A stretch of 58,875 nt of DNA, taken from assembly GCA_016929695.1 (NCBI GenBank), contig JAFGII010000013.1, forward strand, positions 1 through 58,875, written 5' to 3'. This DNA comes from Ignavibacteria bacterium. GTDB lineage: Bacteria; Bacteroidota; Ignavibacteria; Tepidaquicellales; Tepidaquicellaceae. The notes below the pieces were generated by a model that worked only from the letters and a program-made list of their open reading frames with translations, was not told where the DNA came from and did no database searches. Both the position numbers and the translations under genes were made by a program. Numbering within the stretch: position 1 is the stretch's first letter; every line of letters starts with the position of its first letter. Positions 57,236-58,875 of the stretch are shown here, one piece after another.

Positions 57236-57400
57236 GTGAAAGTTTTAGTAAAAATAACAATATTTTTAATTTCTTTTTCTTCTCTTCAAGCCCAGTGGTT
57301 CAGCCAGAGTCCATTGCCAACTGTGAAAGATTTGAATGGTATTTATTTTGTAGATGACGACATATTCATATCGAATAAAAAGTTCGTTTTAATAAAATAA
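57236..57400 (+). pseudogene. 54-codon chimeric mini-ORF: secreted-protein start joined to a T9SS domain end
   Basis: Read from GTG at 57236-57238. It has an N-terminal signal peptide (about 1-18, ending LQAQ), then WFSQSPLPTVKDLN, which looks like the start of a YCF48-type beta-propeller protein (in relatives, QWxWQNPLPQGNxLxxVYFVD). At the FVD it switches to DDIFISNKKFVLIK and stop, the last residues of a T9SS sorting domain. The join keeps the frame. The end (57355-57410) repeats the end of the next gene (58820-58875) at about 54 of 56 positions. It most likely arose by deletion between two T9SS cargo genes, using short sequence identity. It has a signal peptide and the very end of a sorting domain, but no folded body, so function is doubtful. 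Confidence 0.7.
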
Positions 57401-57410
57401 AATTATTAAG
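57355..57410. repeat. 56-bp direct repeat, copy 1 (of 58820-58875)
   Basis: TGACGACATATTCATATCG and the following bases to ATTATTAAG occur again at 58820-58875 with two differences (57373-ish A for C; 57409 A for G). The repeat includes the codons for the last residues of a T9SS sorting domain and the leader of the next gene. The two copies bracket one complete T9SS-cargo gene. Confidence 0.9.
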
Positions 57411-58865
57411 ATGAAAAAAATTACAATCCTTTTATTATTAGTGATTAACACTGTATGTTTCAGTCAGTCTATTACCTGGCAGAAGGCGTATAAAGGGATA
57501 TATACGACAGACTATGGCGGAAACGATATATGCAAGGCAGATAACGGTAATCTTTATATAATTGGAGGAAGTAATTATCCGGTAGGTGTATATATTATTA
57601 AAATAAATCCTTATGGAGATACAATCTGGACAAGATTCATTCAGCAAGGTGAAAGTAATGCCGGTATATCAACATCGGACGGCGGATGTGTAGTAACAGG
57701 TTGTTGGCATACAAGCCCGATATCATCATTTGCATTAAGAATAAATTCATCCGGCGAAACCGTATGGCATAAAAACTATATAAACAGTCCGGTCGCGATT
57801 TGCTATCGAATTATAAGAACTTCCGATAATAAATATGTTGCCTGCGGGAGAATATCTTATGGCACGGCATATTATGGATACTTAATGAAATTAGATTCAA
57901 ACGGAAATATGATATGGCAGAAACATATTCCTGCAAACAGAATACGAATTTACAGATCATTAATTGAAACGAATGAAGGAAATTATATTGCAGGAGGTTG
58001 GGCTTCAGATATAGCATATAAAAGTGACGGCGTTATTACAAAAGTAGATACATCCGGAAATATTATTTGGGATAAAAGATACAGTTCATACAGTCAATCA
58101 ATGACAGACGGATTATTTATAGACAAAATTAATCAATATTATTTAATTGGCGGCAACACTTACGATTCTACTTTGGGGAAATGGGGAATAGGATTTAAGA
58201 GATTAAATTCAGACGGTAATGTTGTATTTTCAAAACATTTCCCGGAATTGCTGAACGACAAATTCGATTTTACTGATATAAAAGCAATAAATTCGAATAA
58301 ATATTTATTATTATATTACAGGTTTAGTTTTTTTCACGATACATTGCTTGCAAATTCAATTATTACGGATTCAATGGGTAATATATTAAAATCAATGGAA
58401 TTTATAAATACAACTTTTATTATACTCTACCGTTCTTTTATATTAAATAACGGAGATATAATGTTCATAGGAAATTCGGATAATTTCCATCCTGATTACA
58501 CCAACATATATGCCATTAGAGCAGACAGTAATTTATATGTACAACCTGTAGGAATAAATAATTCAAATAAAATAATGCCTGAAAATTTTAAATTATACCA
58601 GAATTACCCCAACCCGTTCAACTCAATGACAAATGTTAAATTTGAAATGTCAAATGCAGGAGTAGTGGAAATAATTGTGTTTGATTTACAGGGGAAAGAG
58701 GTGAGAACACTTGTAAATGAATATAAGCAGGCGGGAACGTATCAGGTAAAATTTAATGCCCGCCAAGGCGGATCTTTGACGGATTTACCGAGCGGGGTAT
58801 ATTTTTATTCATTGATAGTTGACGACATATTCATATCGACTAAAAAGTTCGTTTTAATAAAATAA
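57411..58865 (+). CDS. T9SS-exported beta-propeller-like protein
   Basis: 484 residues. Signal peptide (1-18; CFSQS). Six to seven blade-like repeats of about 50 residues (for example DICKADNGNLYIIGGSN, then KINPYGDTIWTRF; then GGCVVTGCWHTSP and RINSSGETVWHKNY; then KYVACGRISYG and KLDSNGNMIWQKH) fill residues 20-370. They resemble SBBP or delta-60 propeller repeats found in outer-membrane and surface proteins. The T9SS domain at the end has NYPNPFNSMTNVKF and LQGKEVRTLV and LPSGVYFYSL. Between NA and LPSG it carries an extra RQGGSLTD, written by a CCGCC-AA-GGCGG palindrome. The window ends ten bases after the stop, within the 56-bp direct repeat, so another gene probably follows. Confidence 0.82.
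   Translation: MKKITILLLLVINTVCFSQSITWQKAYKGIYTTDYGGNDICKADNGNLYIIGGSNYPVGVYIIKINPYGDTIWTRFIQQGESNAGISTSDGGCVVTGCWHTSPISSFALRINSSGETVWHKNYINSPVAICYRIIRTSDNKYVACGRISYGTAYYGYLMKLDSNGNMIWQKHIPANRIRIYRSLIETNEGNYIAGGWASDIAYKSDGVITKVDTSGNIIWDKRYSSYSQSMTDGLFIDKINQYYLIGGNTYDSTLGKWGIGFKRLNSDGNVVFSKHFPELLNDKFDFTDIKAINSNKYLLLYYRFSFFHDTLLANSIITDSMGNILKSMEFINTTFIILYRSFILNNGDIMFIGNSDNFHPDYTNIYAIRADSNLYVQPVGINNSNKIMPENFKLYQNYPNPFNSMTNVKFEMSNAGVVEIIVFDLQGKEVRTLVNEYKQAGTYQVKFNARQGGSLTDLPSGVYFYSLIVDDIFISTKKFVLIK
58760..58771. repeat. CCGCC-AA-GGCGG palindrome inserted in a T9SS domain
   Basis: A 12-base hairpin sequence inside the last gene. It encodes part of RQGGSLTD in the sorting domain, where sister domains have ASNL or ASRL. 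It keeps the frame. Confidence 0.7.
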
Positions 58866-58875
58866 AATTATTAGG
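58820..58875. repeat. 56-bp direct repeat, copy 2
   Basis: The counterpart of 57355-57410, at the end of the T9SS gene and at the very end of the window. Copy 1 is directly followed by a gene start; the same may hold here just outside the window. Confidence 0.9.

Follow-up and report, generated by a model that had tools for sequence, protein, structure and literature searches.

The T9SS signal has been described as a folded domain (PMC11285876), and in fusions of GFP to the tail of HBP35 the last 22 residues of the CTD were required (PMC3120885). The described systems closest to the locus reported here are the YCF48-type T9SS cargo proteins (PF14870, PSII_BNR), the Por_Secre_tail sorting domain (PF18962) and the deletion-derived pseudogenes of bacterial tandem gene families. 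The short frame that we describe shares with members of the first group, which are about 700 aa long, a predicted signal peptide and the first ~20 mature residues, but it has no complete propeller blade and has lost most of the sorting domain. Its last ~15 residues close with the KKFVLIK typical of Por_Secre_tail, although these represent only about 15 of the ~75 positions of that domain and give no match to the profile. Finally, as in deletion-derived pseudogenes, it keeps the 5' and 3' ends, has lost the centre and adjoins an intact member of the family, the difference being that its frame happens to stay open.

The window is the whole stretch of DNA that was analysed (58,875 nucleotides) and corresponds to the complete contig C120 of a 2.78-Mb assembly in 124 contigs. 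Close to its right end lies an open frame of 54 codons with a GTG start and a TAA stop (57236-57400, + strand), referred to below as the mini-ORF. The features of this locus are the following.

57236..57400, + strand: in-frame junction of a YCF48-type cargo N-terminus with the tail of a T9SS sorting domain (translation, comparison with relatives)
57236..57292, + strand: predicted signal peptide MKVLVKITIFLISFSSLQA, with a putative cut before Q20 at a Q-rule type site (sequence read by eye)
57293..57355, + strand: beginning of the first YCF48/BNR-like unit, QWFSQSPLPTVKDLNGIYFVD (aligns to the N-termini of YCF48-type proteins of relatives)
57341..57358, + strand: putative deletion-junction interval, the likeliest point being TAG(A/T)TGA at 57351-57357 (alignments to the neighbour's tail and to the C81 tail)
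57351..57408, + strand: repeat copy 1, with the final tail codons, the stop and 8 bases downstream (56/58 identical to 58816-58873)
57411..58865, + strand: intact 484-aa T9SS cargo gene with a weak DUF5122/PQQ-like propeller passenger and Por_Secre_tail (frame translation, Pfam)
58605..58853, + strand: PF18962 sorting domain of the intact 484-aa gene, residues 399-481 (Pfam, E=3.3e-9)
58816..58873, + strand: repeat copy 2, the intact gene's own end (repeat alignment; the contig ends 2 bases further)

As judged from the DNA itself, the mini-ORF is probably what is left of a single YCF48-type T9SS cargo gene, the middle of which has been deleted and the tail of which was already like that of its neighbour, and it is most likely non-functional and decaying. 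The front half carries a start that is typical of a Sec signal peptide upon inspection, K-rich and then with a hydrophobic run and LQA-Q, the putative cleavage position being based on the Q that follows the cut site (Q-rule; PMC5837995). Residues 1-42 align, with 33-48% identity, with the N-termini of mostly ~700-aa YCF48-type proteins in 44 genomes of the order, where the best match to the 54-aa query has an E-value of 1.2e-5 and 40% identity, and this bears out the preliminary description of a frame that opens as a YCF48-type secreted protein. Homology is confined to the N-terminal part, as far as the first blade motif, and no propeller blade matches the PF14870 profile. The best-matching protein of a relative (G022, 700 aa) contains both PF14870 and PF18962, and at the point where the mini-ORF switches to VDDDIFISNKKFVLIK most of the relatives' proteins instead run on as NTGW.VG...KTTNGG. 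No full-length relative of the front was found in the mini-ORF's own genome, in which the best other front match is of 28% and has one stop. The translation of the frame includes the stretch QWFSQSPLPTVKDLNGIYFVDDDIFISNKKFVLIK, and promoter-like sites around the frame are no more numerous than in shuffled sequence.

The other half repeats the end of the next gene, as originally noticed, with 56 matches over 58 bases between 57351-57408 and 58816-58873, a stretch that takes in the final ~15 codons, the stop codon and the 8 bases that follow it. In the host genome, the same repeat is recovered as a longer gapped match (93%, E=1.5e-21) and is therefore not due to chance. The sole base change within the tail codons of the mini-ORF replaces the conserved T in TKK by N. 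The claim that the frame ends, in phase, with sorting-domain residues is thus supported by the repeat, but it applies to ~15 residues only: PF18962 spans ~75 aa, and the 54-aa frame, searched by itself, matches no Pfam family at E-values up to 1, neither PF14870 nor PF18962. An 846-aa gene on contig C81, which is of the YCF48 type (PF14870, E=1.7e-16), has a Por_Secre_tail (PF18962) and ends in VDDIFISTKKFVLVK, is 98% identical over its last 63 bases to the gene at 57411-58865. An intact YCF48-type front with this very tail therefore exists in the genome, and a single deletion inside one gene suffices to account for the mini-ORF, in which both parent-type ends are present and the centre is missing.

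It had been proposed that a deletion joined the two neighbouring genes. What stands of this proposal is the deletion, by which a YCF48-type front was probably joined in frame to a sorting-domain end, but not the joining of neighbours, since the gene downstream is complete and retains its own end, and a deletion running from one gene into the other cannot leave both ends. The segment from the first propeller blade (after residue ~40) to the last ~15 codons would have been lost in one deletion, so that the signal peptide and the end of the tail came to be joined in frame. Recombination between short similar words would be the probable route: the two sides of the junction share TAG(A/T)TGA and, slightly upstream, also ATTTATTTT (on the tail side as read from C81), because NGIYF of the propeller start and SGIYF of the sorting domain have similar coding sequences. 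The lost gene would have borne the neighbour's tail DNA beforehand, like many cargo genes of this genome, which would explain the 'duplicated' look of the end of the mini-ORF.

Relatives offer no direct view of the parent. The preliminary description had suggested looking for it at this place, and it was not found in the 14 relatives inspected (G001 and G002 from the same genus and twelve others, none a close strain). In these 14 genomes, the region after the HAD-family gene contains other genes, often lyase-like (named by eye), and in some of them cargo genes are present a few kb farther on; none has a YCF48-type gene at the site itself. Among the genomes compared, the pair of cargo genes is therefore lineage-specific, and the parent cannot be read from relatives. 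A conserved copy of the mini-ORF in relatives, which would have spoken against the original description, was also sought and no orthologue was found in 44 genomes of the order. Several candidates were discarded: short frames resembling mini-ORFs in G023, G001, G011, G018, G043 and G003, which lie at contig ends; G022:C153, where there is no cargo frame; short tail frames in G002 and G008, which are frameshifted, decayed or contig-end tails (that of G002 sits within a 1.57-kb duplicate, 95.7% identical); and, in a contig scan across genomes, the one match obtained, which covers 18 residues in a proteobacterial MAG and was attributed to chance similarity in a signal peptide.

Other origins can be envisaged for the two-part structure. 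The front of one cargo gene might have been fused with the 3' end of its downstream neighbour, or of a gene that once lay between the two, that end being duplicated. Although this is in line with the finding that the mini-ORF tail is nearest to that of the adjacent gene (56/58 bases, including 8 past the stop), while the C81 copy departs from it shortly beyond the stop, it is unlikely: the adjacent gene is intact, two copies call for one more duplication or for a third gene since lost, and neighbours commonly share tails without any fusion. Erroneous joining of two genes at the repeat by a short-read assembler would be compatible with the fragmentation of the assembly, the end of the contig 2 bases beyond the second repeat copy and the contigs of several relatives that end within YCF48-type genes. 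Yet the overlap of the two sources at the junction amounts to a few bases, far under assembly word lengths, the front half is found nowhere else in the assembly and a typical read exceeds the 58-base repeat in length, which makes such an artefact quite improbable.

The preliminary description also saw in the mini-ORF the creation of a new secreted peptide. An intact frame, a credible signal peptide with Q after the putative cut site, a retained KKFVLIK end motif and another, similarly built 54-codon frame on contig C76 speak for a functional small peptide using the T9SS. Nevertheless, the ~15 tail residues are fewer than the 22 needed in the HBP35 fusions, a sorting domain cannot be recognised, translation would start at GTG instead of ATG and no relative among the 44 genomes has kept the frame, so that this interpretation is not supported and such a function appears, from these sequence features, very improbable. 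As for the remnant of an internally deleted gene, which we favour, decay would not need the frame to be still open and in phase, GTG is a legal start and one substitution in the tail is not enough to demonstrate that constraint is relaxed. Of the 92 cargo genes scored with a heuristic, 90 start with ATG, while GTG is used in the mini-ORF and TTG in the C76 remnant. The ~15-residue tail, the GTG start and the T to N change, each weak singly, jointly favour a remnant, and the mini-ORF would then be an ordinary one.

The broader sharing of tail DNA is more interesting than the mini-ORF itself and stands as an observation. In this genome it is normal for different cargo genes to carry tails that are nearly identical. 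In a survey of 119 tails, from 521 kb of own-genome stretches picked for cargo richness, the mean tail identity (ungapped over 63 bases) is 0.68 for adjacent same-strand cargo genes (n=58) versus 0.58 for other pairs (n=6963). Adjacent pairs without a BLASTP hit between passengers (E 1e-3, a threshold at which remote homology between propeller passengers is still possible) have a tail identity of 0.67 (n=35), which was reached in 0/2000 permutations. In G008 (near-closed, 8 contigs), such neighbours show 0.71 (n=17) versus 0.615 (0/2000 permutations), while in G002 (same genus, single contig), with only 5 such pairs, the trend is not significant (212/2000 permutations). Tandem cargo genes in this T9SS-rich bacterial family thus share near-identical tail DNA even without detectable passenger similarity, which bears on how genomes build up cargo-gene sets of 100 to 150 or more members and is a caution that shared tails may mimic gene fusions. 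Tentatively, short-patch copying (gene conversion or cassette-like insertion) might spread sorting-domain 3' ends, with the stop and a few downstream bases, between neighbouring cargo genes with unrelated passengers, and mini-ORFs might be by-products of recombination at such tails; we hold this to be possible rather than likely. No report of T9SS cargo genes that are unrelated yet exchange their tails was found in the literature, in which the domain rearrangements of P. gingivalis are the closest parallel (PMC5266723).

The frame on C76 (C76:5145-5309(-), equivalent to L010:1498-1662(-)) is the one other of the same design in the 729 kb of own genome surveyed, about a quarter of the genome picked for cargo density and containing 118 full-length tail-ended frames. 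Its 54 codons, the first of which is TTG, encode a signal peptide and the last 27 tail residues, and its stop overlaps the start of the gene that comes next, a YCF48-type cargo gene whose tail is similar. A third regex hit (L147) was judged by eye to be chance, and C55:14032 was set aside since it is a tail severed by a TAG stop within a full-length gene rather than a mini-ORF. The latter gene (C55:12730-14130(+), equivalent to L099) is a YCF48-type cargo gene with a sorting domain broken by that stop 32 codons before the end. On C25 (L130:19144-19748(-)), a truncated cargo tail adjoins a transposase-like frame (named by eye) and may stem from a gene that was cut by an insertion element. Within the window, 384-851 on the - strand is a decayed cargo gene with a sorting-domain tail disrupted by a stop or frameshift, and the left end of the contig displays an 87-base inverted repeat (5-91 and 145-231) that is 95% complementary, pyrimidine/purine-rich and possibly an assembly fold-back.
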